Below are positions 751 to 17,481 of a stretch of DNA of 39,892 nt, one piece after another; the stretch's first letter is position 1, and the number at the start of each line of letters is the position of its first letter. The position numbers and the translations under genes were made by a program. A model generated the notes under the pieces. The model saw only the letters and a program-made list of their open reading frames with translations, searched no databases and was not told the DNA's origin. The stretch covers positions 70,152-110,043 of the forward strand of contig BDTD01000006.1 of the NCBI GenBank assembly GCA_002897635.1, given 5' to 3'. This DNA is from a bacterium BMS3Abin11. GTDB lineage: Bacteria > Pseudomonadota > Gammaproteobacteria > BMS3Bbin11.

Positions 751-999
751 TGTGAGAAACCAGTTGAGTAAAATCAATAACTGAGTATGCTATATTTTGA
801 ATGAACATTATAGTACGTTGATCAGGTGCTTATGAATATCATTAGCATTTTAATCACTGGCACTATACTCAATCCTGTTTCAAATTTCGCAAATTAAATC
901 ATTAACTTGTGAAGTGAAAAGTATCGGTTAATATGTAACATTAGAAACTAAAATAGTGTATAAATCTAGTTTTTTGAAGAAAATCAGGAATTATCTACC

Positions 1000-2091
1000 A
1001 TGCAATATGAATCCAGAAGACCACTGTATAGCATCCTTGCAATAATTCTGTCTATAAGTTTATCCGCATGTGTGCAGACACCAGAAAAGAAACAAGAATT
1101 AATCGCATACCCTCCGCCGCCTGAACAGCCCCGGTTTTATTTTGAGCATACCTTGGTAAGTGCGGCTCAGGTATTACATGATAATCGCGAAACCCGTCTT
1201 AGACGTTTGGTGACGGGTGAATCCAAATCAGGTACAGGCCTGGCTAAGCCATTTGATGTGGCAGTATGTAAGGGACGTGTATATGTAAGTGATACGGCTG
1301 CCAGAGCAGTATTCTTATTCGATTTTCCTTCTGGCCGGTTTTCAACTATAGGTAAGGAAGAAGGTGCCGAACTACAAAAACCATTGGGTATTGCAACAGA
1401 TGCCGTATGTAATTTGTATGTGGCAGACATAACTGGAAAACGCATCGTTGTTTATGATGCTGAAGGTAACTACCTTCGAGCCATAGGTGGGGCTGAATGG
1501 TTTAACCGCGTCAGCGGAGTGACAGTAAATCCAGAAGGAACCCGGGTCTACGCTGTCGATACTGGCGGTGTTCAGTCACAGGAACATAGAGTCCGCGTGT
1601 TTAATGCAACAAACGGAGAACATCTTTTTGACTTTGGCAAGCGTGGTAATGGTGAAGGTGAGTTCAATTTACCAAAGGCAATAGACATGGGGCCTGATCG
1701 CAACTTGTATATAGTTGATAGTGCTAATTTTCGAATTGCTGTTTTTGATGAAGAAGGTCGGTTCGTACGAAACTTCGGTTCACTTGGGCGCAGAATGGGA
1801 CAGTTTGCTCGACCCAAAGGGATTGCTGTCGACTCAGAAGGGCGTGTATACGTTAGCGATGCATCTCATGGCAATTTTCAGATTTTTACTGCCGAAGGAC
1901 AGCTGTTATTATTTATCGGCTCACGCAGTACTCAACCCGGGAGAGCTCAGTATCTTTTACCAGCAGGAATAGATGTTGATGAGGATGGGCGGGTTTATTT
2001 TGTTGGGCAGTTTTATCGCAAGCTCGATATATTCAGGCCTGCTGAACTGGATACGTCTGCCGGTTACCTGGGTGCCTGGTCGGGAGACTGA
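1000..2091 (+). CDS. NHL-repeat beta-propeller lipoprotein (NHL1)
   Basis: A 363-residue protein with a type II signal peptide: the lipobox LSAC places the lipidated cysteine at residue 24. A proline-rich segment (PPPPEQPRF) follows, then at least five NHL-type blades with recurring 'G.A.D..G.VYV.D....R..VF...G' wording. NHL propellers are usually scaffolds or binding platforms. In several multihaem cytochrome clusters such lipoproteins accompany the haem proteins, with unknown function. A second copy with the same 'P.PPEQPHF' start lies at 12044, before the 11-haem gene. The gene has no co-directional neighbour within 200 bp upstream and is followed by a long gap with a transposase remnant, so it may be transcribed alone. 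An enzymatic role is not indicated. Confidence 0.88.
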   Translation: MQYESRRPLYSILAIILSISLSACVQTPEKKQELIAYPPPPEQPRFYFEHTLVSAAQVLHDNRETRLRRLVTGESKSGTGLAKPFDVAVCKGRVYVSDTAARAVFLFDFPSGRFSTIGKEEGAELQKPLGIATDAVCNLYVADITGKRIVVYDAEGNYLRAIGGAEWFNRVSGVTVNPEGTRVYAVDTGGVQSQEHRVRVFNATNGEHLFDFGKRGNGEGEFNLPKAIDMGPDRNLYIVDSANFRIAVFDEEGRFVRNFGSLGRRMGQFARPKGIAVDSEGRVYVSDASHGNFQIFTAEGQLLLFIGSRSTQPGRAQYLLPAGIDVDEDGRVYFVGQFYRKLDIFRPAELDTSAGYLGAWSGD

Positions 2092-2884: not shown

Positions 2885-3721
2885 ATGATAAATTTTAGCA
2901 AATTAAGCCTGGCAGTAATCTTGGGGGCTGCGCTAGTAGTGAGCAGTTCCTCAGTATTCGCACAAATATATGGCAGTAAACATGACATGTCTGTTACTGG
3001 GACAGGGCAGTCAGCGAGTACAGCGACAGATGAAATCTGTGTTTACTGCCATACACCTCATGGATCAGACATTGCTGCACCGGCACCACTCTGGAACAGG
3101 TTCCTTAATACCTCTGTGTCATACCAGCGTTATTCTGCATTAGGAACTGCAACGCTTGATGGTGATGAAGCACCAGTGGGCTCTGTCTCACTGGCATGTT
3201 TATCCTGTCATGATGGTGCGCAAGCGATGGATGCTGTAATTAATGCGCCGGGTTCAGGGGGCTATACTGCAACTGGAGCGGTTATTGGCGGTGGTGTCGG
3301 TACCACTATGACGGGAACACCTATCCCAATGCTTGGTACTGACCTGCGTGATGATCACCCGATTAGTATTCAATATGCGGGTGGTGCATGTCAGGGGACA
3401 TTAGCTGACTGTGCCCCATCAGGTGCATCATCTGGCGACCCTGATTTTAATACTGCGCAATACGCAAGTATAAACTCTAATCCTCAATGGTGGGTAGATA
3501 CCGGGACTACTGGTGCAAACGTTCGTGAAAAGACGGATATGATCCTCTATGCACGCAGTGACTATAATACTGCTACTGGTACAGGACCAGCGGTAGAATG
3601 TGGTAGTTGTCATGACCCTCACAATGCTAGTACATTCAGTAGTAGCCCTCCACTATCCGTTGCCTTCCTGCGATTGCCTAATACGGGGAGTCAGGTTTGT
3701 CTGGCTTGTCATATTAAATAA
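2885..3721 (+). CDS. Tetrahaem c-type cytochrome, OmcE-like (CytE)
   Basis: A 278-residue exported protein (signal peptide ending at SSVFA) with four haem motifs: CVYCH (C52), CLSCH (C105), CGSCH (C239) and CLACH (C272). It has exactly four other histidines, H33 (KHDM), H59 (TPH), H158 (DDHP) and H246 (DPH), so every haem can have bis-His ligation with none left over. The order KHD / CxxCHTPHG / CxxCHDG / DDHPIS / CxxCHDPHN / CxxCH is the layout I associate with the four-haem OmcE-type filament cytochromes of Geobacter; that link is from memory. C169 and C176 could form a disulfide. A GGGAGA ribosome site precedes the ATG. A hairpin terminator follows, so it may be expressed separately from the foldase and barrel. 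The N-terminal part of the 11-haem protein at 13132 is its paralogue. Confidence 0.9.
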   Translation: MINFSKLSLAVILGAALVVSSSSVFAQIYGSKHDMSVTGTGQSASTATDEICVYCHTPHGSDIAAPAPLWNRFLNTSVSYQRYSALGTATLDGDEAPVGSVSLACLSCHDGAQAMDAVINAPGSGGYTATGAVIGGGVGTTMTGTPIPMLGTDLRDDHPISIQYAGGACQGTLADCAPSGASSGDPDFNTAQYASINSNPQWWVDTGTTGANVREKTDMILYARSDYNTATGTGPAVECGSCHDPHNASTFSSSPPLSVAFLRLPNTGSQVCLACHIK

Positions 3722-3772
3722 CTACTTCACCAGGGGTAATTGACAAGTACCCGCACTTAATCAGTAGTACAA

Positions 3773-3812
3773 CAGGCCAGGGTGGGTATTCCTCTGGCCT
3801 GATTTATTTTTA
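3773..3812 (+). terminator. Intrinsic terminator or attenuator after the tetrahaem cytochrome
   Basis: CAGGCCAG (3773-3780) pairs with CTGGCCTG (3794-3801), followed by ATTTATTTTTAT. It lies 19 bp before the start of the foldase gene, so partial read-through would give less foldase and barrel than cytochrome. Confidence 0.65.
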
Positions 3813-3831
3813 TAAGGGGTTAAGTATTATC

Positions 3832-4821
3832 ATGAAAAGACCTGTCTGGAATTATGCTGTAGCAGTCAATTTAATGATCACTACATTGATTTTATTGTTG
3901 CCTGGTATTTCGTTGTCTGATGAGCCCGCTTTAAAACCTCAATCAGCGTTATTTGCTACAGTGGGTGGGATTGAAATCACTCAACAAGTCCTGGATGATG
4001 CTGTTAACCGGCGGGTACGTACAACACTTTTTCATGGTCAGCCGCCGGCAGATAAACTGGCTGCTTTGCGTAAAGAGGTTTCCTCCGACCTTATAGATCG
4101 TACTCTACTGACCCAGGAGGCAATTAAAAGAGGACTAGTACCTAATCAGGAAAAAATTCAGCAAAGCATAGGGCGTATGAATGACTACATGAAACAACGT
4201 GGGCATGAATATAGTAATGCTGATAAGCAGCAAGCGAAAGATTTTCTCAGGCAGGAAGATTTGATTTCCCAACTTAGAGAAAAGGTCCAGGAAGTTGCGA
4301 CACCAGATTCTTCTGAGATAGAAACTTTCTACAAAAACAACCCTCAATTATTTACTGAACCAGAGCAAATACGCCTGTCCGTGATATTGCTGAAAGTTGC
4401 TCCTTCATCAACGAAGGATGTGTGGGCTGCTGCTAGAAAAGAAGCTGCGGATTTACTTATACAATTAAATAAGGGTGCCGATTTTGCTGCGCAGGCAAAA
4501 CTACGTTCCACAGACCCCTCAGCAGAAAAAGGGGGAGATATGGGCTACTTGCACAAAGGAATGTTAGCTCAATCGGTAGAAAGGGTAGTTGATAAACTGG
4601 AGGTTGGGCAAGTTACTGAGCCGATTATGGTATTGGAAGGAATTGCAATCTTTAAATTAACAGGAAGGATGGCTGCTGTATTGCGTTCATTTAATTCAGT
4701 TAATCAACGTGCGAGTGAACTCTATCGTAAACAGTTGAGAATAACTGCATGGCAGGCATTAAAGAAAAAGTTACGACAGGAAAACCCAGCGGAATATCAT
4801 CAGCTTGTAACGAAAGATTAG
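3832..4821 (+). CDS. Periplasmic peptidyl-prolyl isomerase, SurA/PpiC type
   Basis: A 329-residue exported protein. After a signal peptide (about residues 1-30) comes a helical SurA-type N-terminal region (about 40-155; 'GGIEITQQVLDDAVNRR', 'LIDRTLLTQEAIKRGL') and one parvulin domain (about 165-275; 'EQIRLSVILLKV', 'STDPSAEKGGDMGYLHKGML', 'VGQVTEPI'). It has one parvulin domain where SurA has two. Such foldases help outer-membrane barrels and large secreted cytochromes fold. The next gene encodes a 622-residue barrel protein, so a dedicated chaperone for that barrel or for the haem proteins is the natural reading. A GGGG-type ribosome site lies somewhat far upstream. No membrane anchor beyond the signal is evident. 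Confidence 0.88.
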   Translation: MKRPVWNYAVAVNLMITTLILLLPGISLSDEPALKPQSALFATVGGIEITQQVLDDAVNRRVRTTLFHGQPPADKLAALRKEVSSDLIDRTLLTQEAIKRGLVPNQEKIQQSIGRMNDYMKQRGHEYSNADKQQAKDFLRQEDLISQLREKVQEVATPDSSEIETFYKNNPQLFTEPEQIRLSVILLKVAPSSTKDVWAAARKEAADLLIQLNKGADFAAQAKLRSTDPSAEKGGDMGYLHKGMLAQSVERVVDKLEVGQVTEPIMVLEGIAIFKLTGRMAAVLRSFNSVNQRASELYRKQLRITAWQALKKKLRQENPAEYHQLVTKD

Positions 4822-4890
4822 CGGTCTGACGCGTTCTATTACAAAATAGGTGAGAATCCGTGATTATTTTCCCTCAAAACAGGTTGGCAA

Positions 4891-6759
4891 TTGAATCATC
4901 GAACAGGCATAGCTTTTTGGTTGTTGTTTGTGCCAGCAACGGCAGCTGCTGGTACGAATATCGTAATACCTCCTTTCGTGCTTAATGGAGAACTCTCCTA
5001 TTCTGTGTTACAAAGAGACACTGAGCGGGTTAATGGTCACAATGAGTCTACGCTGGATCAGCAATTAAGTTTTAGAATTAATGCTAACACTTATGTTTGG
5101 AAACCCTGGTTTGGATTGCTTGATGGCGGTCTACTTTTAGGCTTGCAGGATGGTAAAAGAAGTGTTGCTGGCTTCAATAGTATTGGCCAATCTGATCAGA
5201 GTGACGACACAAAAATCGTAAATGGCAATATTAATTTTCGATTGTTTCCAAAAAGCACCTTTCCCTTTGAGGCTTTTTTCATCCACTCTGATACGCGAAC
5301 AGAGAGCTTGACTAACCGAGGAAGTGACAATATTACAAGCTCAATCACTTATTTAAATGATTTAACCACAACCCGCTATGGCGCACGGCAATTCTACAAC
5401 AGTGATAAGGGCTTTAGAATGAAAGCGAGGGCTGAAAAAATTGAAGTGCAGAATGCGCAGGAAATAGATACAGGAAAATTTTTGTTATTTGAAGCGGGGG
5501 TTAACTATCACGACAACAAACTGGATTTCAGGCTTTCTTATGATCAGTTTGACCGTGGCCGTCAGAATGATGATGGTGATATTCTTTTCTCAGAACTACT
5601 ACACCATTATACCTCAAGAAAAAAAAATAATTTCTCTATACGTAATGAACTTACCTATGAAAATCGAACAACAACGCGATTAGCAGGAATTACTAATGAC
5701 AGGGATTTGTTTCAGTATAACAATTTTACTAACTGGACATTAAATTCAGCGAGGTTAACGCGATTTACTGCGAACGGTCAGCTTCAAAGAGGCCTGGTAA
5801 ATTCCGGAAATGAAGAAAAGGTAACATCAGATAGTGTTAGTGCAAATTTTGGTGCTGTGCATAATCTTACACCGGTTTTACAAATAACCGGAGGCCTGGG
5901 TGGCAATGCAAGTAATCGCACTGGTATTCAGAGTGATGATGATACAAGAAAACGTCTATACGAATCAGTAGGCATTCGTTATTTCCCCTACGCCATTCCA
6001 CTTGGTAAATATCGATACAACTGGTCAGGTTCTGCATCGGCAAGGTCTGAGCAGGCAACTTTTGGCAATAGCATTACCTTAAGCGCTGGTTTAGGCCATA
6101 ATATTAATCGTCAGTATCGTTTCGGTCGTCAGTCAATGTTAACGCTTAGTGGTAGCCAGGCATTAAACCCACTACACAGAAAAGGTGCCGATGCTTTAGA
6201 TGACAGGGTAGAGATCTTGTTAAATCAGCAACTGGCACTGCGTCTCAATCGCAGCCAGGGAGGGAGTAATTTCTATACTTCTTTAACACTTAGTGATTCA
6301 AGAGATTTAGGTGATGATGATAACAATTACCAGTCACTCAATCTGCAATTTTCCGGATCATTGCGTATCAGTCGATTTTCTTCACTGAGCGGCAGTGCCA
6401 CCTGGCAAGCAACACGGTTTGAATCAAATTTAAAAAACGAATTGGTTAATAAACAACGTACAGACAATACCAACTTAAGTGCCAATATAGAATATAAGCA
6501 CCGGCGAGCATTCAAGGTAAATGGCCTGCGCTTCCGGTCAAAGCTGGTACTAATGAACCGTAAGGCAGATTATAAGGATGATAATCTTGACCGTTTAATT
6601 TCAGATCAACGCTTTGTCAAGAATACCTGGGAAAACCGACTGGAGTATAGAATCGGTCTACTTGATCTAAAACTTATCGGAAGACTTTCAGGGTTTGACC
6701 AGGATACACAAACATCCGTACTTTTTCAGATTTCTAGATACTTCGTTGGTATTATTTGA
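4891..6759 (+). CDS. Outer-membrane beta-barrel protein, putative conduit porin
   Basis: A 622-residue protein with a signal peptide (cleavage near ATAAAG) and then, throughout, alternating polar/aromatic short strands separated by Asn/Asp/Arg-rich turns ('YGARQFYNSDKGFRMKARAEKIEVQ', 'ITGGLGGNASNRTG'), typical of a large beta-barrel of about 20 or more strands. No haem motif is present. It starts at a TTG (4891): an in-frame TGA at 4861-4863 and the absence of ATG/GTG between force this choice, and AGG sits about 8 nt upstream. It lies between the foldase and three periplasmic cytochrome genes, which fits the barrel sheath of a trans-outer-membrane electron conduit, as in Mtr- or Geobacter Omb-type systems. 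The C-terminus (YFVGII) lacks the usual terminal Phe. Family name unknown to me. Confidence 0.75.
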   Translation: MNHRTGIAFWLLFVPATAAAGTNIVIPPFVLNGELSYSVLQRDTERVNGHNESTLDQQLSFRINANTYVWKPWFGLLDGGLLLGLQDGKRSVAGFNSIGQSDQSDDTKIVNGNINFRLFPKSTFPFEAFFIHSDTRTESLTNRGSDNITSSITYLNDLTTTRYGARQFYNSDKGFRMKARAEKIEVQNAQEIDTGKFLLFEAGVNYHDNKLDFRLSYDQFDRGRQNDDGDILFSELLHHYTSRKKNNFSIRNELTYENRTTTRLAGITNDRDLFQYNNFTNWTLNSARLTRFTANGQLQRGLVNSGNEEKVTSDSVSANFGAVHNLTPVLQITGGLGGNASNRTGIQSDDDTRKRLYESVGIRYFPYAIPLGKYRYNWSGSASARSEQATFGNSITLSAGLGHNINRQYRFGRQSMLTLSGSQALNPLHRKGADALDDRVEILLNQQLALRLNRSQGGSNFYTSLTLSDSRDLGDDDNNYQSLNLQFSGSLRISRFSSLSGSATWQATRFESNLKNELVNKQRTDNTNLSANIEYKHRRAFKVNGLRFRSKLVLMNRKADYKDDNLDRLISDQRFVKNTWENRLEYRIGLLDLKLIGRLSGFDQDTQTSVLFQISRYFVGII

Positions 6760-6786
6760 TGCGGACTTTATTTAAGAGGATAAAAA

Positions 6787-7200
6787 ATGACAGAAAATAA
6801 TGAAACCCGATTGACGAAAAGTATATGGCTATTAAGTATAGTCCTGTTCCTTCTTATGTTTCTAATATCACCACAAAAGGCAAGCGCTGAATACGGGGAT
6901 GTAGTGATCAATAACTACTCTGATTCTGCCGGTATGCGGCCGGTAATTTTCCCACACTGGTTTCACCGAATACGGTTTCGCTGCAAAGTATGCCATGCAG
7001 ACCTTGGCTTCAAATTTAAAGCAGGTGGTAATAAAATTAATATGCTAAAAATTATTGATGGTGAATACTGTGGAGCCTGTCATAACGGTGAAATTGCCTG
7101 GGGTGTTGAAAACTGTGACATATGTCATTCAGCAAAACCTGGTACACCAACACAGGTTCATGAGAGCACATTGCAGAAACTCCTTGCACCAAAAAAATAA
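6787..7200 (+). CDS. Trihaem c7-type cytochrome (A1)
   Basis: A 137-residue exported protein with a signal peptide ending KASA and three haem motifs: CKVCH (C66), CGACH (C95) and CDICH (C110). The extra histidines are H57, H60 and H125, giving six in total, enough for three bis-His haems. The 'FPHWFHRIRFRCKVCH' start and 'CGACHNGEIAW' spacing match the c(7)-type trihaem domain family found in periplasmic electron carriers. It lies 27 bp after the barrel gene and is probably co-transcribed with it. A near-identical paralogue (A2) is encoded at 11599, sharing 'EYGDVV', 'RPVIFPHWFHRIRFRCKVCH' and 'CHNGEIAW.VENCD.CHS'. The likely role is passing electrons across the periplasm. Confidence 0.9.
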   Translation: MTENNETRLTKSIWLLSIVLFLLMFLISPQKASAEYGDVVINNYSDSAGMRPVIFPHWFHRIRFRCKVCHADLGFKFKAGGNKINMLKIIDGEYCGACHNGEIAWGVENCDICHSAKPGTPTQVHESTLQKLLAPKK

Positions 7201-7221
7201 TGATCCAACATGGTGACTAAT

Positions 7222-8178
7222 ATGAATGTATCCAAAACACTAAAATACCAAATTAACCTGCTATCTATATACCTGATAGTACTATTAACACTTGCACTAT
7301 CAGCATCTGTGCAGGCCGCCGGTAATTCGGGTAAAAGGATTGTTGAAAAGAATTGTGCAGCATGTCATCAGACTGGTGTAGCCGGAGCACCAAAAACTGG
7401 TGTAAAAGCGGACTGGGATGAACGCCTGAAACAGGGTGATGACACACTTAATAAACACGCTATAGAAGGGTTCAAGGGCATGCCGCCTAAAGGTGGTAAT
7501 AGAGCGCTGACAACAAAACAGGTAAAAGATGCTGTCGCCTATATGCATCAAACAGTTGTGGGCTCTGCCAGTAAAAAGACTTCAAGAAAAAAAGCAGCTG
7601 TAGCAAGTAAACCTGTCGTTAAAAAATCAGCCCCTAAAAAGACAGTTTCAAAGCCAAAAGTAGCAACTGTGAATACCTTTAATCGTCTTATGATACCAAA
7701 AAACAAGCGAAATCCACCACCAATGAGAGATGGTATTCATGATCCAAAAAATAGTGGAACCAAAATCCTTCAACATCCATCACAGGCATTTAATGGCATA
7801 GCAAAAAGCCGGAGTGGGAACTATATTGATTGGGTTAAAGCACTGAATAACGGAAATATTAACCCAAGATATAAACTCCTTGATGAGAATGCTAAACCAC
7901 TTATTTTGGATCTTAATATTATCCGCGAGGTGAAAGGTTCAATGCCGAATGTAGATTATCCTCATAAGCAACACACACAGTGGCTGGACTGTTCAAACTG
8001 CCATCCTGCTATATTTATACCTAAAAAAGGAGGCAATCAAATTTCAATGGCGGCTATCCTGCTTGGGCGAAAATGTGGTGTTTGCCATGGTAAAGTCTCA
8101 TTCCCGGTATCTGATTGCCGTCGTTGCCATTCACGCAAGAAAAACGCTAAGATAATAAAAAAGACCAGCAGTAAGTAG
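7222..8178 (+). CDS. Fused cytochrome c5-like / trihaem c7-type cytochrome (B1)
   Basis: An exported chimera. After the signal peptide (to SVQAA) comes a monohaem cytochrome c5-like domain (CAACH, then GMPPKGG with a possible Met ligand, and 'ALTTKQVKDAVAYM'). A Lys/Ala/Pro-rich linker (about residues 118-150) follows. The C-terminal region has 'WVKALNNGNINPR', 'YPHKQHTQWLDCSNCH', CGVCH and CRRCH, a trihaem c7-type domain. Total four haems. The start at 7222 is preferred over the ATG at 7210 because GGTGA lies 5 nt upstream of it. The C-terminal half is paralogous to B2 (11046), which lacks the c5 domain. The flexible basic linker suggests a tethered shuttle that collects electrons with one domain and delivers them with the other. 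The partner is unknown. Confidence 0.87.
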   Translation: MNVSKTLKYQINLLSIYLIVLLTLALSASVQAAGNSGKRIVEKNCAACHQTGVAGAPKTGVKADWDERLKQGDDTLNKHAIEGFKGMPPKGGNRALTTKQVKDAVAYMHQTVVGSASKKTSRKKAAVASKPVVKKSAPKKTVSKPKVATVNTFNRLMIPKNKRNPPPMRDGIHDPKNSGTKILQHPSQAFNGIAKSRSGNYIDWVKALNNGNINPRYKLLDENAKPLILDLNIIREVKGSMPNVDYPHKQHTQWLDCSNCHPAIFIPKKGGNQISMAAILLGRKCGVCHGKVSFPVSDCRRCHSRKKNAKIIKKTSSK

Positions 8179-8235
8179 AAGGGGGTAATAGCATTATTTG
8201 CTTAGGGAGAGATGTACTTGGGGGAGGAATTTAAG

Positions 8236-9135
8236 ATGAAGTTTTTCTATGTCCTACAGCTTTCGCTGTTATTCATATTTTTATTCGAAGGTTCGTCAAT
8301 GGGTGGATTGATCTTACCTGCCTATTCAGCTGTGGTTGAGGAAGAAAACGGTCAGCGCGCGCTAAAGCAAAAGCTAATGTATCTGGAAAAGATGATTTTT
8401 TCTTCAACAATAAGTCAGCGTGTCAACAGTAGCGGTAAGCCTGAGGCAATTGCACTCCTGAATGAAGTACAAAATAATTTTAATCAGGCAAATGAAATGT
8501 TTACTGCGGGTGAACTGGAAAAAGCCAATGAGTTGATCAGCAAGTCCTATACAATGGCGGGCAAATTATCACAGATGGTGGCAGACAAAAAAAATCAGCA
8601 ACAAAAAGATCAAGCTCAGTTTGAGGGATTACACAAGCAGAGTCATTCATACCTGAAAACACTCGAAGCCCTGGCGAGTGAGGAGGAAAGTTTGTCGGGT
8701 TATTTACCCGACAAAAGTATAATTACAGCTCAAATACATGAAGCTGCAGAATTCGCAAACAAAGGGGATTTTAAACATGCTAACGATGCCATGATGGGCA
8801 TCGTTTCTTTACTGGAGCAATCGCTTGTTGCAGCACGAGACTCTATGACACTGATAAGTCGCTTTGAGTTTGGCTCTTTAGCTGAGGAATACAGTTATGA
8901 GATAGAAAGCTTTAAAAGTCACCAAATGCTCGTTGATTTAATGATACGTGAGCGCAAACCTTCTTTGGCATTAAAAAAATTAATTGATGATCGTGTGGCT
9001 AAAAGCCAGGATTTAAAAGATAAGGCCGAATCCTCAGCTAAGTTGGACAAATATGGGGATTCTATTTCTTTGATGGAACAGGCGATAAAAGAACTAGTCA
9101 GGGCATTACGCATTGGCGGGCTAAATATACAGTAA
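8236..9135 (+). CDS. Exported all-helical protein of unknown function (H1)
   Basis: No known family recognised. A 299-residue protein with a signal peptide and then almost continuous predicted helix in TPR-like pairs ('NNFNQANEMFTAGELEKANELISKSYTMA', 'HEAAEFANKGDFKHANDAMMGIVSLL', 'KLDKYGDSISLMEQAIKELVRALR'). It has no cysteine, hence no haem. The ATG at 8236 is chosen because GGAGG lies 8 nt upstream; the ATG at 8212 would add an odd 'YLGEEFK' prefix before the signal. It closes the barrel-A1-B1 run. A paralogue (H2, 10144) opens the second half of the locus, sharing 'EY.YE......H.ML...L..EK.PS' and the C-terminal 'LVRA.R..G..I'. A scaffold or assembly role for periplasmic cytochromes is inferred from context only. 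Confidence 0.8.
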   Translation: MKFFYVLQLSLLFIFLFEGSSMGGLILPAYSAVVEEENGQRALKQKLMYLEKMIFSSTISQRVNSSGKPEAIALLNEVQNNFNQANEMFTAGELEKANELISKSYTMAGKLSQMVADKKNQQQKDQAQFEGLHKQSHSYLKTLEALASEEESLSGYLPDKSIITAQIHEAAEFANKGDFKHANDAMMGIVSLLEQSLVAARDSMTLISRFEFGSLAEEYSYEIESFKSHQMLVDLMIRERKPSLALKKLIDDRVAKSQDLKDKAESSAKLDKYGDSISLMEQAIKELVRALRIGGLNIQ

Positions 9136-9184
9136 TATTTTGAGTCCCCCAGCCATTGAAAGTAACCATTCTTAACAGATTGAA

Positions 9185-9730
9185 TTATTCGTCGTATTCA
9201 CCGAGGAAAATTTGTGCTCCCTTATGTTCCTGTAAAGCAGCCTTATGAATCCATAAATATGCTTCTTCCGTGTTCCGGGTTACTCCGGTACCGGCCATTA
9301 GCAGGAGCCCCAGGTGATACTGTGCATCAGCATGCCCTTGTCGTGCTGCATGCAAGAACCATCTGACAGCTTCTTTATCTCTGTCTTCTACTTCAACCGG
9401 CAGTGCGGGGTCATACAGGAACAAATTGGCAAGATTAAATTGTGCATCAATGTCACCTGAAGATGCGGCACGGCTAAACAGGACATAGGCCTTGTCAATA
9501 TCCTCGATGACACCTTTACCATTGTAGTAAATGACACCAAGCGTACTCTGAGCCCTGGTGTCGCCATTTTCTGCCAGTGGAGTCAATATTTTAACGGCTT
9601 TCTCAAAATTTTCCGCCTGATAAGCATTCAGTCCATCTTGTGTAGATTGTGCCATCACACTATTGACAACGAAAATATGACTAATCATCACATAAAATAG
9701 CCACTTTTTTATTGAAATATTCATGCTCAT
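9185..9730 (-). CDS. Exported Sel1-repeat protein
   Basis: About 181 residues: a signal peptide (to NSVMA) and then three to four Sel1/TPR-like repeats ('GDTRAQSTLGVIYYNGKGVIEDIDKAYVLFSRAASSGDIDAQFNLANLF', 'GHADAQYHLGLLLMAGTGVTRNTEEAYLWIHKAA'). Sel1 repeats mediate protein-protein contacts, often in assembly or signalling. It is the only minus-strand gene inside the cytochrome locus and sits exactly between the two mirrored halves, convergent with H1 and divergent from H2. Start codons at 9736 (TTG), 9730 (ATG) and 9724 (ATG) are all possible; 9730 is given here. Whether it belongs to the electron-transfer system is not shown by the sequence. Confidence 0.85.
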   Translation of the reverse strand: MSMNISIKKWLFYVMISHIFVVNSVMAQSTQDGLNAYQAENFEKAVKILTPLAENGDTRAQSTLGVIYYNGKGVIEDIDKAYVLFSRAASSGDIDAQFNLANLFLYDPALPVEVEDRDKEAVRWFLHAARQGHADAQYHLGLLLMAGTGVTRNTEEAYLWIHKAALQEHKGAQIFLGEYDE

Positions 9731-9736
9731 TCTCAA

Positions 9737-10143
9737 CTAATGAATGTAATTGATAGTGCTGCCAGAGTATTTGATGCTATTTTATAAAAATTCGCATCGT
9801 GAATTCCAGGAAACTCAGCTGAATAAATAGTCCTTTTCTTTTGCCCTGCCCATTTCAATGTGACGCCGATCACTTACCAGGCTGCCGTCCGAGTAGAATG
9901 TTTAATGGTACACAAAGTATATTTTATAGATGCTATAGCTCTCTTTAAATGTATTTAAGGTGCATAAGAATGTTATAATATACATTGGCTATTGTTTTTA
10001 TTTATAATTATTTTCTCAATATATTTAAATATATTTAATAGGGTAATGGAGCACTTCCAGAAAAGAAAGTTGCTGGACTTCAATTAAATATTTGACTGTT
10101 AAACATAACACTATATTAAAAGATAAACAACAGGTCCTACAGC
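9737..10143. other. AT-rich divergent intergenic region
   Basis: About 400 bp between the Sel1 gene (minus) and H2 (plus). The half nearer H2 is very AT-rich with TATATTTAAATATATTTAAT-like runs. The half nearer the Sel1 gene contains a CRP-like site. I see no ORF and no RNA gene here; it is most likely a regulatory region for one or both genes. Confidence 0.5.
9859..9874. promoter_or_regulatory. CRP-like operator
   Basis: TGTGA-CGCCGA-TCACT matches the CRP layout TGTGA-N6-TCACA with one change. It lies about 130 bp from the Sel1 start and 270 bp from the H2 start in the divergent region. A CRP/Vfr-type regulator could control this half of the locus; this is inference from the motif only. Confidence 0.38.
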
Positions 10144-11037
10144 ATGAATAAAAAGTACACACGGAAATTACTTCTCATCTCTAGCTGTTCAGTTTTACTG
10201 ATTACCAGTATATTCTCCAGCTATTCATATGCTGAAGCTTCTTTACAGAAAAGTGATACCACACCGGAAATACGTCTTGAATATGTGAAAAAGCTTATCC
10301 TTACCTCTTCTGCGGCTAAAATTATCGAGTCGAGTAACAATAAAAAGGCACTCGCAAAAAGAAAAGAAGCGATGCGTTATTATCAACAGGCAATAAAAGA
10401 AATGGATGCAGGGGATAAAGTAAAAGCATCTGGTTCTCTGGATCTTGCATCAAAAACGATAGTTGAAGCGGTGCACCTAATCGGAGAAACGGAACAGAGT
10501 GTAGATAAACAGAAAATAGATATCAATAACAAACTTGAAAGCATCGAAGCTTTAATGGTGGCTTATCGCCAGATACACGAAGAAAAAAAAATATCACCGA
10601 ATGCTCAGGTTCATAGCAAGATCGAGAAGTTACTGGCACAATCACGTGCTTCTTATAAAAAAGAGGCGTATGTAGAATCCAGAAAAACAATAGATACCGC
10701 GTATGCTCTGGTGAAAAAAGAACTTGAACGCTTACGTGGAGGCGATACACTAGTACGCTCACTGATTTTTGCCACAAGTAAAGACGAGTATATCTATGAA
10801 CTGGATCGCAACGACACTCATAATATGCTTTTCAATGTCTTACTAAAGGAGAAACAGCCAAGTAAGAGTACGGTCGAAATGGCACAAAAATTTGTAGATA
10901 AAGCTGTGGAGTTAAGGCATAAGGCAGAAAGACAGGCATCCAAAGGTAACTATAAGTCAGCGATTGAGGTGCTTGAGGAATCTACAAAAAATTTGGTACG
11001 AGCAATCCGCGGTGCAGGTATATACATCCCGGGCTAA
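10144..11037 (+). CDS. Exported all-helical protein of unknown function (H2)
   Basis: No known family recognised. A 297-residue protein with a signal peptide (to SYAEA) followed by helical repeats rich in Lys, Glu and Ala ('RKEAMRYYQQAIKEMDAGDKVKASGSLDLASKTI', 'SRASYKKEAYVESRKTIDTAYALVKKELERL', 'RQASKGNYKSAIEVLEESTKNLVRAIRGAG'). It has no cysteine in the mature part. It is a paralogue of H1 (8236) over the full length, most clearly in the last 100 residues. It is followed within 10 bp by B2, so it is the first gene of the H2-B2-A2-NHL2-11-haem run. The repeated coupling of this family to A- and B-type trihaem cytochromes suggests a dedicated structural partner. Confidence 0.8.
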   Translation: MNKKYTRKLLLISSCSVLLITSIFSSYSYAEASLQKSDTTPEIRLEYVKKLILTSSAAKIIESSNNKKALAKRKEAMRYYQQAIKEMDAGDKVKASGSLDLASKTIVEAVHLIGETEQSVDKQKIDINNKLESIEALMVAYRQIHEEKKISPNAQVHSKIEKLLAQSRASYKKEAYVESRKTIDTAYALVKKELERLRGGDTLVRSLIFATSKDEYIYELDRNDTHNMLFNVLLKEKQPSKSTVEMAQKFVDKAVELRHKAERQASKGNYKSAIEVLEESTKNLVRAIRGAGIYIPG

Positions 11038-11045
11038 GTTATGAA

Positions 11046-11588
11046 TTGATAGTGGGTATTGAATCTTTGTTATATGTTAATAAACATTCAGATCAAAAGG
11101 CATACCTCAGCATAATCTGTCTCTTATTTAGCCCAGGAATACTGGCTGCGGACTGGAAGCCACTTTCAGCAGATAATCTTCATGATCCTTATAGTCAGGC
11201 CATTGAGATTCTACAGGAGCCTGCAGCGGCTCTATCGGTTTTGCCACCTGATACGGTAGGCAACCACGTGCGCTGGGTAGAGGCGCTACAAAATGGTGAA
11301 ATCTCACCACGTAGTAATATCTTTCCTGAGACAAAAGTTGAAATTCTTGATGAAGATATCCTGTTCAATGAAACCTCAGATATGCCAATTGTTCTATTTC
11401 CTCATGACAAACATACTGCATGGCTAGATTGTAATAACTGCCATGACAAAATTTTCAAAAAGAAAACAGGTGCTACAAAATTTGGAATGTTTGACATCCT
11501 TTCAGGACGTTTTTGTGGCCGTTGTCATGGTGCCGTCGCTTTTCCACTGACTGAATGTAAACGCTGCCACAGCGTTTCAAGAAATTAG
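11046..11588 (+). CDS. Trihaem c7-type cytochrome (B2)
   Basis: Up to 180 residues with a signal-like segment ending LAADW and three haem motifs, CNNCH, CGRCH and CKRCH, in 'FPHDKHTAWLDCNNCH', 'SGRFCGRCHGAVAFPLTECKRCH'. The pre-haem region 'VRWVEALQNGEISPR' matches 'IDWVKALNNGNINPR' of B1, so the two are paralogues; B2 lacks the N-terminal cytochrome c5 domain and linker. The start is uncertain: the frame begins with TTG (11046), with GTG (11052) and TTG (11067) also possible, none with a clear ribosome site, so translation may be coupled to H2, whose stop lies 8 bp upstream. It is likely a periplasmic electron carrier. Confidence 0.85.
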   Translation: MIVGIESLLYVNKHSDQKAYLSIICLLFSPGILAADWKPLSADNLHDPYSQAIEILQEPAAALSVLPPDTVGNHVRWVEALQNGEISPRSNIFPETKVEILDEDILFNETSDMPIVLFPHDKHTAWLDCNNCHDKIFKKKTGATKFGMFDILSGRFCGRCHGAVAFPLTECKRCHSVSRN

Positions 11589-11598
11589 TTGTCGCTTG

Positions 11599-12006
11599 AT
11601 GTCTAAACAATTTTTTCATCTGGGAATTCATCATTATCGTTTACTGGGCTTAAGTACACTCGTTTTACTTATCTTTTGTATGTCTGTTGCAAAAGCTGAA
11701 TATGGTGATGTAGTCCTCAACAAACATGCAGAGGAGGAAGGGGTTCGCCCGGTTATCTTTCCTCACTGGTTTCATCGGATTCGGTTCCGTTGCAAAGTTT
11801 GCCACAATGAGCTTGGTTTTAAGATGCGAGCGGGTGCTAACAATGTAACCATGGATGAAATTACCGAAGGAAAATTTTGCGGTATGTGCCATAACGGTGA
11901 AATTGCATGGACTGTAGAAAACTGTGACCTGTGTCATTCAGGTAAACCTGGCCTGAAGAGTGGTATTGTAGGTGGGCACAAGACACTTGGCCCTGGAAAA
12001 TGGTAG
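11599..12006 (+). CDS. Trihaem c7-type cytochrome (A2)
   Basis: A 135-residue exported protein with a signal peptide ending AKA and haem motifs CKVCH, CGMCH and CDLCH. It is closely similar to A1 (6787), sharing the mature start 'EYGDVV' and 'RPVIFPHWFHRIRFRCKVCH'. Extra histidines in the PHWFH segment and near the C-terminus (GGHK) are ligand candidates. It begins 10 bp after B2 and belongs to the same transcription unit. The higher similarity between A1 and A2 than between B1 and B2 suggests either recent exchange between them or stronger constraint on this carrier. Confidence 0.88.
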   Translation: MSKQFFHLGIHHYRLLGLSTLVLLIFCMSVAKAEYGDVVLNKHAEEEGVRPVIFPHWFHRIRFRCKVCHNELGFKMRAGANNVTMDEITEGKFCGMCHNGEIAWTVENCDLCHSGKPGLKSGIVGGHKTLGPGKW

Positions 12007-12043
12007 GATTAAAACAAAATATCTGGATTCATGGACATAAGGG

Positions 12044-13120
12044 ATGATCAAGTTAATTTTATGTACCGCTCTCAGAATATTTATAGGCTTTGCTCCTGGT
12101 CTAGTGCTAGTCTCATGCTCATCATCTCCAATGGAGTTTCACTATCTCACGGCAAGCGATTATAAGAACCCGGTTTGGCCTGCACCACCAGAACAGCCAC
12201 ACTTCATGTATGTAGGTCAGCTAAAAGGAGAGGATAATTTACGCCCGGTTACTGCAGGAAATCATGCTCGTATGGACACGGCTATTCGCTGGATTACAGG
12301 GCTTGGCTTTAGTCGTGATGCGAAAGTAACTTTAGTGAGACCGCAATGTGGTGCCGTAGGACCTAACGGTAGAATATTCATTACAGATGTAGGAAATAAT
12401 AGTATTTTTGTTTTTGACCCGATTAATGGTGTGTTGGATGTATGGAAAGATGCTGACTGGAGTACACCTTTTATCTCCCCAATAGGCATTGTTGCACTCC
12501 CTGATGGCCGGGTTCTTGTTGCAGATTCCGGGGCAGGGTTTATTTATGTTCTTGACTCTACTGGAGCACCACTTTCTAAAATCGGTGAGCATATCCTGAA
12601 ACGACCTACCGGTCTGGCCTTTGATATAAAGGCTGGGGAGATTTATGTTGCTGATACAGAAGCACAGGATATTAAAGTGTTTGACCTGTATGGTCAGTTG
12701 GTCAGAACAATCGGTAGTCCGGGCACCGGTAATGGTGAATTTAATCGCCCAAGTTATCTGGCTTTTAAGTCTGGAAAGCTATATGTAACTGACACATTGA
12801 ATGCACGGATTCAGGTATTTTCTTCCTCAGGTGATTTTTTATCTATTGTTGGGGGGCGGGGGTTATATGTAGGGAATCTGACACATCCAAAAGGAGTGGC
12901 CGTTGACTCAGATGAAAACATATACGTTATTGAATCCTTTTATGATTATTTACTAATATTTAATCCCCAGGGTAAATATTTGATGCCTATAGGTGGCAGT
13001 GGCCAGAAGCCTGGTAAATTCTTTCTCCCTGCCGGAATATGGATTGATGGTGGCGACAGAATATATATTGCTGATATGTTCAATGCACGAGTTATGGTAT
13101 TTCAATATCTTGGTGGTTAG
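12044..13120 (+). CDS. NHL-repeat beta-propeller lipoprotein (NHL2)
   Basis: A 358-residue lipoprotein: lipobox LVSC with the lipidated cysteine at residue 25, a short spacer, 'WPAPPEQPHFMYVGQL', then six NHL-like blades ('PQCGAVGPNGRIFITDVGNNSIFVFD', 'GVAVDSDENIYVIESFYDYLLIFN', 'AGIWIDGGDRIYIADMFNARVMVFQ'). It is the paralogue of NHL1 (1000). It ends 11 bp before the 11-haem cytochrome gene. Each of the two NHL lipoproteins is the upstream neighbour of a CytE-type cytochrome, so a cytochrome-specific surface or periplasmic platform is the likely role. Orientation across the membrane cannot be told from sequence. Confidence 0.88.
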   Translation: MIKLILCTALRIFIGFAPGLVLVSCSSSPMEFHYLTASDYKNPVWPAPPEQPHFMYVGQLKGEDNLRPVTAGNHARMDTAIRWITGLGFSRDAKVTLVRPQCGAVGPNGRIFITDVGNNSIFVFDPINGVLDVWKDADWSTPFISPIGIVALPDGRVLVADSGAGFIYVLDSTGAPLSKIGEHILKRPTGLAFDIKAGEIYVADTEAQDIKVFDLYGQLVRTIGSPGTGNGEFNRPSYLAFKSGKLYVTDTLNARIQVFSSSGDFLSIVGGRGLYVGNLTHPKGVAVDSDENIYVIESFYDYLLIFNPQGKYLMPIGGSGQKPGKFFLPAGIWIDGGDRIYIADMFNARVMVFQYLGG

Positions 13121-13131
13121 CGGGTAAAAAA

Positions 13132-15636
13132 ATGAATGTCAGTCTATCTGTTAGATTTATTTTTGCTTGTATGTTGCTCTCTTTGAGCTTTACAACACGC
13201 GCAGCCTTAGAGTCAAACATCTCACTGACAAAACATAATTTATCAGTGTCTGGTCAGGGGGATATCATAGCTACCAGTGAAGATGAGATATGTGTCTTCT
13301 GCCATACACCCCATGGTGCAACAACAGAGCCCGGGGCTCCCTTGTGGAATAAAGCATTATCGGGCCAGTCATACACAACCTATATGTCCTCTTCTATCGA
13401 TGCTGAGCTAGTTGGAAATCAGCTTGCACAGCCTGCCGGCAGTTCAAAGCTTTGCCTGTCCTGTCATGATGGAACCCTGGCAATTGGTGCAGTGAATGTA
13501 AAAGCAGGGCAGCAGAATGTACTGATAGACCTGGCAGGAATTGACCCTGGCGGGAAGATGCCTGCAGCAGGTTCATTAACTGGTTTTACCCGCAACCTAA
13601 GCACTGACCTGAGTAATGACCACCCTATTTCAGTGACATACGATGACACACTTTCAAATAAGGATGGTGAATTGCGTGTTCCGGATGCCCAGCAACGCAT
13701 ACCTCCTGGAAGTGGTGACGATGTTGCAATAAGAAACCATGCTGCAGGAGTAATACCATTGTTGCCTCTCGAATCAACCGGCCCCAATGGTAAAGGACAA
13801 GTACAATGTGCAACATGCCATGACCCTCATGTAAGGGATACTGATGCTACGATAAATAACAAATTTCTACGCGCTAACAGATTCCAGAATGCCGCACCAG
13901 TTGCCGGGAATATCTTTAATGAAAACCTGGATACTATTTGCCTTGCCTGCCATGACAAAGATCTCGGTAGCGCGGGATGGGCACAATCAGCACATGCTAA
14001 TAACCTGGTAGCTAATGAGCAATACAAAGCCCTTGCTGCTGGAGAACGTGATTTCCCTTCTGATATTTCTGTATGGGAAGCGGCGTGTTTAAATTGTCAC
14101 GATACGCATACCGTCTCAGGTGCCCGGAGGCTGGCACGTGAAGGGACTGACGACACAAATACACCTAAACAGGGTGGCAACTCCGCTATAGAAGAAACCT
14201 GTTATCAGTGCCATACAAATTCTGCTGAAACCATCCTTTCTTCCACAACTAATGTACCCAATATCAAAGATATTTTTAATCTTGTTCGCCATATGCCGAT
14301 AACGACGAGTGACCAGCAAGCAACAACTGAGGTGCATGATATTGGAACAGGCAGTGATGGGTTTGAGGGAACCAAAAGAGGAATAAACTTTGTCGAGGAT
14401 CAAAACCTGCTTGGTAAGGGTGCAGGAAACAAGATAAACCGTCATGCCGAGTGTACAGATTGCCATAATCCTCATCGCGTAATAAAGAATTTTCTGTTTA
14501 ATGCGAATGCCGCAGCGCCTGATTCAGCAGGCACTCATCGCCCAGGGGGAGTGAATGGAAATATTGCATCAGGCGTACTACGAGGGATTTGGGGAGTAGA
14601 GCCGAATTATTCGGGCTCCAGCTTCTTTGACTTACCATCCAGTTACACTATAAAGCAGGGTGTCGGAAGCAGCACATCTGTCAATGCTGCCCACCTTACT
14701 CGCGAATACCAGCTTTGCTTCAAATGTCACTCCGATTATGGTTACGATGATAATAACGTCTATCCTACCGGTAATCGTCCTAATTTAGATGATTCAGGAG
14801 GCAGCACACCGCAAGGTACAAATAAAATGGACCAATACACCAATCAGGCGCGAGAATTCCAGGCACCCACTGGGGACAAGGGTGAGTCAGGTGGTAACCA
14901 TCGCTCCTGGCATCCTGTGGTTGACGATACAGGTAGAGCGCTAGGTGACCGTTCGATAGATGCAGCAGATAACCCCTGGCGCCCTCCATTTGACGCAGCT
15001 GTTGGGACACAGACCATGCATTGCAGTGATTGCCATGGCCCTGATACTGCAAATGATACAATTGATCCAAATGGTGGTGAGGATGGTGAACCCTGGGGGC
15101 CACATGGTTCTCAAAATGATTTTATCCTGAAAGGCACCTGGGATGGATTGACAGGCGGAAACAGCAGCGACGTCCCTGCAACAGACCCAAACAATGGCAT
15201 CTGTTTCAAGTGCCATGAATTCCAGGCCTATGCTGACCGTAATGGTGATAATAGTTACGACAGCGGCTTTAGTGGGACCTCAGGGGGTATGGGGGGAGGG
15301 ACTAGCAATAACCTACATGCTCGTCATGCTGCTAGAATAGGAAAAATGCACTGCAACTGGTGTCATGTAGCGGTACCACATGGATGGAAAAATAAGGCCT
15401 TCCTGGTCAACTTGAATGACGTTGGGGCAGAAGCCGGGCAGGCCGGTATCGAGGTGCCCATTGGGTCTTCTGCCCAAACTTATGATGTCGGGCCTTATTA
15501 CAATAACGCAAAGCTGAAAATCAGAACATTTCGTACCAGCGGCAATTGGAGTGCTAATAGTTGCGGTTCGTCCAGTGGGGGGGGGTTCAATACTGGAACA
15601 AGGTGGATGAGACGAGTGTGCTCTAACCCTCCATGA
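13132..15636 (+). CDS. Undecahaem (11-haem) c-type cytochrome with OmcE-like N-terminal module
   Basis: An 834-residue exported protein (signal peptide to TRA) with eleven haem motifs, first cysteines at about C54, C108, C226, C270, C319, C357, C441, C529, C631, C691 and C741. There are 21 further histidines, more than the 11 needed as distal ligands. Residues about 30-275 repeat the layout of CytE: 'TKHNLSVSG', 'EICVFCHTPHG', 'LCLSCHDG', 'NDHPIS', 'CATCHDPH', 'CLACH'. The seven later haems sit in a Gly/Asn/Asp-rich extension of about 550 residues. No membrane segment, lipobox or porin part is seen, so it is probably periplasmic or on the cell surface. Its stop overlaps the start of resB by 4 nt. 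It could be the terminal extracellular haem wire of the conduit. Confidence 0.92.
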   Translation: MNVSLSVRFIFACMLLSLSFTTRAALESNISLTKHNLSVSGQGDIIATSEDEICVFCHTPHGATTEPGAPLWNKALSGQSYTTYMSSSIDAELVGNQLAQPAGSSKLCLSCHDGTLAIGAVNVKAGQQNVLIDLAGIDPGGKMPAAGSLTGFTRNLSTDLSNDHPISVTYDDTLSNKDGELRVPDAQQRIPPGSGDDVAIRNHAAGVIPLLPLESTGPNGKGQVQCATCHDPHVRDTDATINNKFLRANRFQNAAPVAGNIFNENLDTICLACHDKDLGSAGWAQSAHANNLVANEQYKALAAGERDFPSDISVWEAACLNCHDTHTVSGARRLAREGTDDTNTPKQGGNSAIEETCYQCHTNSAETILSSTTNVPNIKDIFNLVRHMPITTSDQQATTEVHDIGTGSDGFEGTKRGINFVEDQNLLGKGAGNKINRHAECTDCHNPHRVIKNFLFNANAAAPDSAGTHRPGGVNGNIASGVLRGIWGVEPNYSGSSFFDLPSSYTIKQGVGSSTSVNAAHLTREYQLCFKCHSDYGYDDNNVYPTGNRPNLDDSGGSTPQGTNKMDQYTNQAREFQAPTGDKGESGGNHRSWHPVVDDTGRALGDRSIDAADNPWRPPFDAAVGTQTMHCSDCHGPDTANDTIDPNGGEDGEPWGPHGSQNDFILKGTWDGLTGGNSSDVPATDPNNGICFKCHEFQAYADRNGDNSYDSGFSGTSGGMGGGTSNNLHARHAARIGKMHCNWCHVAVPHGWKNKAFLVNLNDVGAEAGQAGIEVPIGSSAQTYDVGPYYNNAKLKIRTFRTSGNWSANSCGSSSGGGFNTGTRWMRRVCSNPP

Positions 15637-16625
15637 TGCGTATTCTCAGGATTTTAGGCAGCTTAAGGCTAACACTCTTTGGTATTGTGCTGATAGCAAC
15701 AGGTGTGTTGCTGAATATATATATCCCAGGTAACCCGGATCTGTTTATCAGCGGGCCCGTTGGTTTTCTCTCGCTTAATTTACTCGCCGCAATTATTACC
15801 AGGCCACAGATGCGCCGGCAACATGCCCTTTTGCTGTTTCATTTGTGCCTGCTCGCGCTGGTTGTAGTTGTATTTCTTGGCAGGCTGACTCATTTTAAGG
15901 GACAGGTGGAATTGACCGAAGGTCAATGGTTGGAAGCAGCAAACCTGGTAACCGTGAGTAGTGGCCCCTGGTACCATAACATATTGACTGATATTCAATT
16001 GCAACAGGGGCCAATTCAGGTCGCTTATACCACGCAGAATTATCGTCAGAAGACCCATAGCCAGATACTGCTGACATCAGCACAGGGGGTCACAGAGGCG
16101 GCAATGATTGATGATAACAATCCACTGGTGATTGATAACTACCGATTCTATATCACACCGAATAAGGGGTTTTCGGCAATACTCCGCTGGGTAGATCTGG
16201 CAGGACAAACTGTTCTGGGTGCCGTGAACTTTCCTTCTTATCCAGCACTGGACTTTAAACAAAAACAGCAATGGGTTACCCCTGAGGGTGAAAAACTGTC
16301 TTTGCGATTGATCATTGAAAATATCGCTGATGCTAATAACAACTGGATATTAAGCAGTAAAGTTTCGAAACCTCGACTGGATGTGATTGTAAATGACAAG
16401 GTACACACATCTCTGTTTCCAGGAGATTCAATGAAATTATCGGGTGGAGAACTTCAATTCATGCAGCTAAAAATGTGGATGGGTTACTACATCAACTATG
16501 ACCCAAACTCACGCTGGATATTTCTTATTGCACTGTTAGGGGTGCTAGCGATGTCTTTGCACCTGTACGGAAGACAGGTAAATGCGCCGACTCTTGTGCG
16601 AAAACTAGTAGCGGTAGAAAAATAG
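15633..16625 (+). CDS. resB: Cytochrome c biogenesis protein ResB (System II)
   Basis: A 330-residue membrane protein: three N-terminal hydrophobic segments (about residues 10-30, 40-56 and 64-82, the last including 'HALLLFHLCLLALVVVVFLG'), a large extracytoplasmic domain, and a C-terminal membrane helix (about 294-314, 'WIFLIALLGVLAMSLHLYG'). This is the ResB/Ccs1 layout. With CcsA it forms the System II complex that carries haem across the membrane and attaches it to CxxCH motifs. The start codon overlaps the 11-haem stop (ATGA), implying translational coupling. The protein is shorter than many ResB (about 450-600 residues), as in compact forms next to multihaem genes. A second ATG follows immediately at 15636. 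Confidence 0.85.
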   Translation: MMRILRILGSLRLTLFGIVLIATGVLLNIYIPGNPDLFISGPVGFLSLNLLAAIITRPQMRRQHALLLFHLCLLALVVVVFLGRLTHFKGQVELTEGQWLEAANLVTVSSGPWYHNILTDIQLQQGPIQVAYTTQNYRQKTHSQILLTSAQGVTEAAMIDDNNPLVIDNYRFYITPNKGFSAILRWVDLAGQTVLGAVNFPSYPALDFKQKQQWVTPEGEKLSLRLIIENIADANNNWILSSKVSKPRLDVIVNDKVHTSLFPGDSMKLSGGELQFMQLKMWMGYYINYDPNSRWIFLIALLGVLAMSLHLYGRQVNAPTLVRKLVAVEK

Positions 16626-16702
16626 ATATCCAATACATTCTGATTGCCTGTGGTCTGCTTGCCTATCTTGGGGCACTTGTCACTGCGGTTTTTAAACGGC
16701 AC

Positions 16703-17428: not shown

Positions 17429-17481
17429 ATCACTCAGACTAATTTGGAATTTTGCAATATCAAATTAATAAGATTTTGAAA

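Follow-up and report, generated by a model that had tools for sequence, protein, structure and literature searches.

The mirror-ordered cytochrome locus of the gammaproteobacterium BMS3Abin11 is very probably an extended Uet operon composed of ancient, position-locked paralogues

Operons for undecahaem electron transfer (Uet), candidate routes for the uptake of extracellular electrons, were named in cathode-oxidising Tenderiales and encode a tetrahaem cytochrome (UetA), a peptidyl-prolyl isomerase (PPIase; UetB), a porin (UetC), trihaem cytochromes (UetDEG), NHL-repeat proteins (UetHI) and an undecahaem cytochrome (UetJ) (PMC10734462); the set uetABCDEFGHIJ is conserved in Tenderiales (PMC12575090). 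In the cathode organism, Tel_16515, Tel_16520 and Tel_16530 are trihaem cytochromes, Tel_16525 a tetratricopeptide repeat (TPR) protein and Tel_16545 the undecahaem cytochrome, with the trihaem genes counting among its most strongly expressed genes (PMC5371394). A barrel is likewise combined with multihaem cytochromes in the PCC3 porin-cytochrome clusters, candidates for electron uptake in iron oxidisers, and with periplasmic and extracellular cytochromes in the OetABI conduit of sulfate reducers that partner anaerobic methanotrophic archaea (ANME). OmcE of Geobacter sulfurreducens (Protein Data Bank (PDB) entry 7TFS) is a filament subunit in which one haem takes a histidine from the neighbouring subunit (PMC9473688). 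Here we analyse a stretch of 39,892 nucleotides (the window; contig BDTD01000006.1, positions 70,152 to 110,043, forward strand) of the BMS3Abin11 genome (GCA_002897635.1), in which duplicated cytochrome classes stand in near-mirror order on one strand. The locus is very probably a Uet operon of an extended type, and we are just as confident that its mirror is the standard, widely conserved layout of this known operon and not a duplication event in this genome.

As a Uet operon, the locus would read uetA (E1), uetB (foldase), uetC (barrel), A1, B1, H1, H2, B2, A2, NHL, uetJ (E2) and its own ResB/CcsA pair. Left- and right-type proteins are denoted A_L/A_R, B_L/B_R and H_L/H_R; E4 and E11 are the tetrahaem and 11-haem cytochromes and N is NHL. 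Haems were counted as CxxCH motifs. The genes are as follows.

1000..2091, + strand: NHL1, NHL-repeat beta-propeller at the left NHL position, probable lipoprotein (Pfam NHL, E 6e-19; lipobox LSAC, called by pattern only)
2885..3721, + strand: E1, UetA-type tetrahaem cytochrome of the OmcE family (4 CxxCH; phmmer to 7tfs, E 1.1e-25)
3832..4821, + strand: PpiC/SurA-type PPIase with signal peptide, corresponding to UetB (Rotamase, E 6e-17; SurA_N)
4891..6759, + strand: barrel-like protein at the UetC (porin) position, homologous to genes between PPIase and A elsewhere
6787..7200, + strand: A1, left-type trihaem c7-type cytochrome, corresponding to UetD (3 CxxCH; TIGR04257; left group in trees)
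7210..8178, + strand: B1, left type, monohaem c domain plus trihaem c7 domain, corresponding to UetE (4 CxxCH, 1+3; left clade 100/100)
8212..9135, + strand: H1, left-type exported helical-repeat protein (hidden Markov model scores HL 290 versus HR 148 bits; tree)
9185..9736, − strand: Sel1-repeat protein between H1 and H2, outside the conserved operon (Pfam Sel1)
10144..11037, + strand: H2, right-type exported helical-repeat protein (HR 354 versus HL 200 bits; AlphaFold model all-helical)
11046..11588, + strand: B2, right-type trihaem c7-type cytochrome at the UetG position (3 CxxCH; trees, profiles)
11596..12006, + strand: A2, right-type trihaem c7-type cytochrome (3 CxxCH; right clade in both A trees)
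12044..13120, + strand: NHL2, right-type NHL propeller at the UetI position, probable lipoprotein (family search; tree)
13132..15636, + strand: E2, 11-haem cytochrome corresponding to UetJ, its N-terminal domain OmcE-like (11 CxxCH; residues 15-240 to 7tfs, E 2e-19)
15633..16625, + strand: ResB-like protein of system II cytochrome c maturation (Pfam ResB, E 3e-12; place conserved across loci)
16703..17428, + strand: CcsA/CcsB-like system II haem-handling protein (Pfam Cytochrom_C_asm, E 3e-17; place conserved), closing both the operon and the island described below

The original prediction, which considered positions 2885-15636 (NHL1 starts before the left end of that stretch), described duplicated H, B, A, NHL and E-type cytochrome classes in mirror order on one strand, and we found all genes at the places claimed, every one but Sel1 on the plus strand. 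The mirror is exact for A-B-H / H-B-A only, because NHL and E follow one another in the same direction on both sides. Calling the genes a cytochrome assembly set is a misnomer: they are mainly cytochromes themselves, and the assembly genes are ResB and CcsA (15633-17428), which that description omitted. Since these two lie directly 3′ of E2, overlapping it (by 4 bases, in the case of ResB) or close by, the operon extends to 17428. Within the window, A1 and A2 share 61% identity (E 6e-50), B1 and B2 45% (E 7e-44), H1 and H2 25% (E 5e-18), NHL1 and NHL2 27% (E 1e-37), and E1 and the N-terminus of E2 28% (E 3e-24), so that all five pairs are true paralogues. The barrel-like protein had no Pfam match and is assigned from gene position and homology to genes at the same place elsewhere; used as a query against the genome contigs, it was too divergent for any relative to be confirmed. 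No match to Pfam Cytochrom_c3_2 was found in this genome. Counts from a promoter and terminator scan did not exceed those in shuffled sequences, and transcription units were thus not inferred from them.

The same arrangement is found far beyond this genome. A first set of 20 regions was fetched after a survey of 370 genomes of the class for relatives of H2, which occur in 46 of them, often as two adjacent genes on the same strand. Maps built from profile hits were then available for 90 beta- and gammaproteobacterial loci, including 80 named loci that are the best 80 of 550 matches to an A-type alignment query in one scan. Most of the 90 share the order N-E4-PPIase-barrel-A-B-H-(H)-B-(A)-N-(N)-E11-ResB-CcsA on a single strand, the recurring full array being N-E4-PPI-BAR-A-B-H-H-B-A-N-N-E11-ResB-CcsA, all co-directional. 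The pattern A-B-H+-B-A is present in 59 of the mapped loci, exact A-B-H-H-B-A in 35, and E-PPI-BAR-A-B-H+-B-(A)-N+-E in 54. Because the identical co-directional order recurs in dozens of genomes, the mirror is not a product of chance; in many genomes the whole array of 13-15 genes forms one conserved operon. Its carriers belong to Rhodocyclales, Burkholderiales and several gammaproteobacterial families, with parts in alphaproteobacteria. Among the mapped loci, only here does a Sel1 gene split the operon between H1 and H2: the domain-to-domain distance between the H genes is 1015 bp, compared with −109 to 271 bp in all the others. One locus (L105:675-5039) has three consecutive H genes (309, 419 and 701 aa) between B_L and B_R.

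The operon of 'Candidatus Tenderia electrophaga' and other Tenderiales shares its classes and their co-directional order with the window: tetrahaem, PPIase, barrel (putative in the window), two trihaems, helical/TPR protein, trihaem, NHL and undecahaem. Five fully mapped loci with a single A gene (L054-L058, Tenderia type) have the shorter order A-B-H-B-N-N-E11, which matches exactly the order of the published locus tags (PMC5371394), and A2 is absent from all five. In the window, the tetrahaem cytochrome and PPIase are at the 5′ end, as are UetA and UetB; a homologous gene, without Pfam match, occupies the UetC position; and E2 has the 11 CxxCH motifs of UetJ and falls in an orthologue group represented in L040, L044, L054-L058 and most named loci. 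Where the Tenderia type has three trihaems (UetD, UetE, UetG) around UetF, the window has four around two H genes, the additions being A2 and H2. It further differs in that its second NHL gene lies upstream of E1 and not in a UetH/UetI-like tandem before UetJ (extended-type loci have one or two NHL genes before E11), in the Sel1 gene that splits the operon, in an extra upstream set on the minus strand, and in H proteins devoid of the N-terminal cupredoxin-like domain seen in the UetF-position helical proteins of L054-L058. That domain has a conserved His and the motif CRNHxxM (H...C-x2-H-x2-M) and could possibly be a blue-copper site within Uet; a PDB search with it gave no meaningful match. 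The helical part of the UetF-position proteins groups with H1 in both tree and profile scores. The resemblance to other systems is looser: no cytochrome of at least 21 haems was present among the open reading frames of the cluster, and the operon has neither the 21-27-haem periplasmic protein nor a five-helix inner-membrane protein of the PCC3 kind, whereas OetABI, compared by its description, has no PPIase or NHL genes named in the passages considered.

Phylogenies show the paralogues to be tied to their places. All 40 right-position A proteins form one clade (Shimodaira-Hasegawa-like approximate likelihood ratio test (SH-aLRT) 99), and do so again when B is included as a second group (100/99). 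Left-position B proteins are one clade (100/100 in the longer alignment, 100 in another tree), as are the left NHL proteins (98; 50 rows, with NHL1), and most right NHL proteins group together (100). The E4, E11 and upstream E groups are separate in the E tree, and the right-type H proteins, including those of single-H loci, are one clade (92/95), with Tenderia-type H joining left H. Gene position follows the tree groups with 7 changes for NHL and 3 for E, against 75 and 63 in shuffles. Accordingly, the A1 proteins of Thiodiazotropha, Sedimenticola or betaproteobacteria are closer to the window's A1 than is the adjacent A2. The pairs are homologous, as assumed at the outset, yet in the trees left-half and right-half genes each cluster with their positional counterparts from other genomes, and the paralogues hence predate these lineages; and as both the left and right clades span beta- and gammaproteobacteria, the duplications are far older than the genus. 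A recent duplication in this genome is excluded.

The operon and the upstream minus-strand set make up a 29.5-kb island between metG and a gene for a VTT-domain protein (about C6:58135 to C6:87632, window position 17481), with a G+C content of 0.417 versus 0.457 in the flanks and a fragment of transposase OrfA (HTH_Tnp_1, E 2.5e-14) at its left edge (L006:316-498, minus strand; C6 about 58315-58497). In five congeneric genomes metG and the VTT gene are immediate neighbours (about 250 bp apart in G003), and E11 is absent from the other six congeneric genomes, as H is from congeners. One short extra frame is present at this site in G001. Most probably this species acquired the island in one piece; loss of the island in all five congeners is a less simple alternative. 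Duplication of an A-B-H block followed by gene-by-gene rearrangement of the copy, in this genome or a recent ancestor, would account for all five classes being paralogous pairs, but is very improbable given the taxonomic breadth of the left and right clades and congeners that have no such genes altogether. The trees together with the empty sites rule out that this genome underwent a local inversion or tandem duplication, in agreement with the original argument that neither process explains the order. An equally old block duplication with subsequent reordering in a common ancestor is possible.

Several observations weigh against the identification as an extended Uet operon of standard layout, or blur its history. 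The best-match sampling is biased towards loci near the A-type query, so the order counts are not population frequencies, and in an A-profile survey of the class, with matches in 50 of 370 genomes, most had a single A. Membership in Uet was judged from other papers and matching gene order, not from Tenderia reference sequences, and there is one NHL gene between A2 and E2 here, against two in Tenderia-type loci. The H_L proteins lie on long branches, which leaves the details of their placement unsure. Finally, Tenderia-type B_R groups with right B in the longer alignment and with left B in the short one, a conflict that weakens any rooting and any proposed sequence of events. This bears on whether the extended type is ancestral, the Tenderia type having lost H_R and A_R, or gained these genes. 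The former has, in our estimate, somewhat less than an even chance: Tenderia-type A, B and H are nested among left-type proteins, and extended loci occur in beta- and gammaproteobacteria with parts in alphaproteobacteria, but the two alignments disagree over the root. Either way, the verdict on the mirror is unchanged.

The conserved operon itself appears to be modular. The left- and right-type profiles were also applied to loci arranged differently, and L046, L048, L049 and L050, which were kept out of profile building, carry a freestanding A_L-B_L-H_R. In Aromatoleum/Azoarcus the order is BAR-B_R-A_R-N-N-ResB-CcsA ... A_L-B_L-H_R, with the left cassette downstream of CcsA. B_R-A_R stands alone or with N-E11-ResB in L085, L086, L135 and L137, Motiliproteus has B_R-A_R-N-E11-ResB without the left cassette within a 10-kb stretch, the two halves are divergent in L129, and they are also apart in an alphaproteobacterium. 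In the Uet-like loci L100, L104, L108, L112, L114 and L134, from Aromatoleum/Azoarcus and one gammaproteobacterial metagenome-assembled genome, the interval from NHL to ResB yielded no 11-haem gene; A-B-H follows CcsA in all of these except L100, whose stretch runs out with only A visible. Since left A_L-B_L and right B_R-A_R are found apart, the two parts travel separately, and since freestanding A-B cassettes mostly carry the H2 type, the H1/H2 axis is not an axis of duplication. The simplest reading of the order is that two related cassettes, each with its own internal order, were joined head to tail, [N-E4-PPIase-barrel]-[A-B-H] + [B-A-N-E11-ResB-CcsA], with a tandem H pair between them. 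One of the observations named at the outset as refuting the original interpretation is made here, the halves occurring independently with other orders (Aromatoleum/Azoarcus, Motiliproteus, the alphaproteobacterium, solo A-B-H cassettes). As for a five-class functional set kept twice, the array is indeed one functional set kept by selection, but its copies are different ancient orthologue groups. Two parallel electron routes, each half serving a different donor or acceptor, would fit the complete conserved haem sites and separate clades of both halves and the ability of the cassettes to stand apart. Nevertheless, this is improbable: both halves share a single foldase, barrel, 11-haem protein and ResB/CcsA pair, which argues for one outer-membrane conduit; most loci are a single operon and no mapped locus has a second barrel; and the freestanding left A-B cassette mostly comes with H2-type H.

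The families represented suggest how such a conduit might work. E1, homologous to OmcE like the first 240 residues of E2, has exactly eight histidines, four in CxxCH motifs and four others, all aligned with OmcE; in 25 homologues H59 is retained in at least 90% and the other ligand positions in all. This conservation, together with the histidine that OmcE haem takes from the next subunit, suggests that UetA may polymerise like OmcE into an extracellular cytochrome wire. In contrast to OmcE, E1 is encoded alongside a barrel-like protein, a foldase and NHL proteins, and its filament is only predicted; E2 has a further seven haems. The AlphaFold model of E1 without haem had a predicted local distance difference test (pLDDT) score of 43, and no fold comparison was drawn from it. 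That of H2 was confident and all-helical (pLDDT 88); Foldseek returned no match under E 1e-3, and the best VIA match had Z 11.1 over 73 residues, a middling value often seen with helical bundles. The H proteins are exported all-helical repeats and plausibly act as scaffolds. Electrons from an outside donor could thus enter through E1, perhaps polymerised, with E2 and a barrel-based conduit, pass to four periplasmic trihaems scaffolded by the H proteins and feed the respiratory system of an autotroph, while the PPIase would aid folding of exported parts and ResB/CcsA would attach haems. Because the genome also encodes components of system I, a Ccm pair (CcmC- and CcmF-sized matches), ResB/CcsA of the operon look dedicated.

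The host genome carries RuBisCO, dsrA and cbb3 oxidase, as expected of an autotroph. The ccoN homologue (G000:C5:17083-18458, minus strand) is read in two frames that overlap (184 and 361 aa), which may reflect a frameshift or assembly error. An operon working outward, delivering respiratory electrons to extracellular acceptors such as Mn or Fe oxides, is rather unlikely: relatives include Dechloromonas and Aromatoleum, and an undecahaem cytochrome is cited in manganese-reducing Dechloromonas (PMC13264449), but the three host genes fit an autotroph in need of electrons and Uet was named in cathode oxidisers, even if conduits can be reversible. Only tentatively do we propose the extended Uet as a modular outer-membrane inlet of two separately travelling cassettes, with UetA an OmcE-like nanowire and the wires serving electron intake in sulfur-oxidising autotrophs.

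The upstream minus-strand part of the island, mostly outside the window (L006:2675-12929), is a third, more distant set. Besides cytochromes (OmcE-type with 5 CxxCH, B-type trihaem, dihaem and monohaem), this set encodes an NHL protein, a two-component-type propeller and a Sel1 protein, from the island's second Sel1 gene. Its first gene, that of the set, is in the window.

43..777, − strand: dihaem c-type cytochrome (2 CxxCH)

Several other loci have a 2- or 3-haem cytochrome gene at this place and strand upstream of N-E4, and similar divergent upstream genes are present in L042.

Collectively, the paradox of a mirror without inversion disappears, and in its place stands the reading of a mobile operon of two cassettes whose paralogues are ancient and locked in position. 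As a duplication puzzle the locus is ordinary; its moderate interest lies in an extended type of Uet operon that includes a member of the OmcE family. The known range of Uet-type sets is widened to Rhodocyclales, Burkholderiales and gammaproteobacterial families, with alphaproteobacterial parts, and the link of UetA and of UetJ to a nanowire family of solved structure would allow wire-based electron uptake to be tested directly in carriers already in culture, among them Sedimenticola, Aromatoleum, Ramlibacter and Herbaspirillum.

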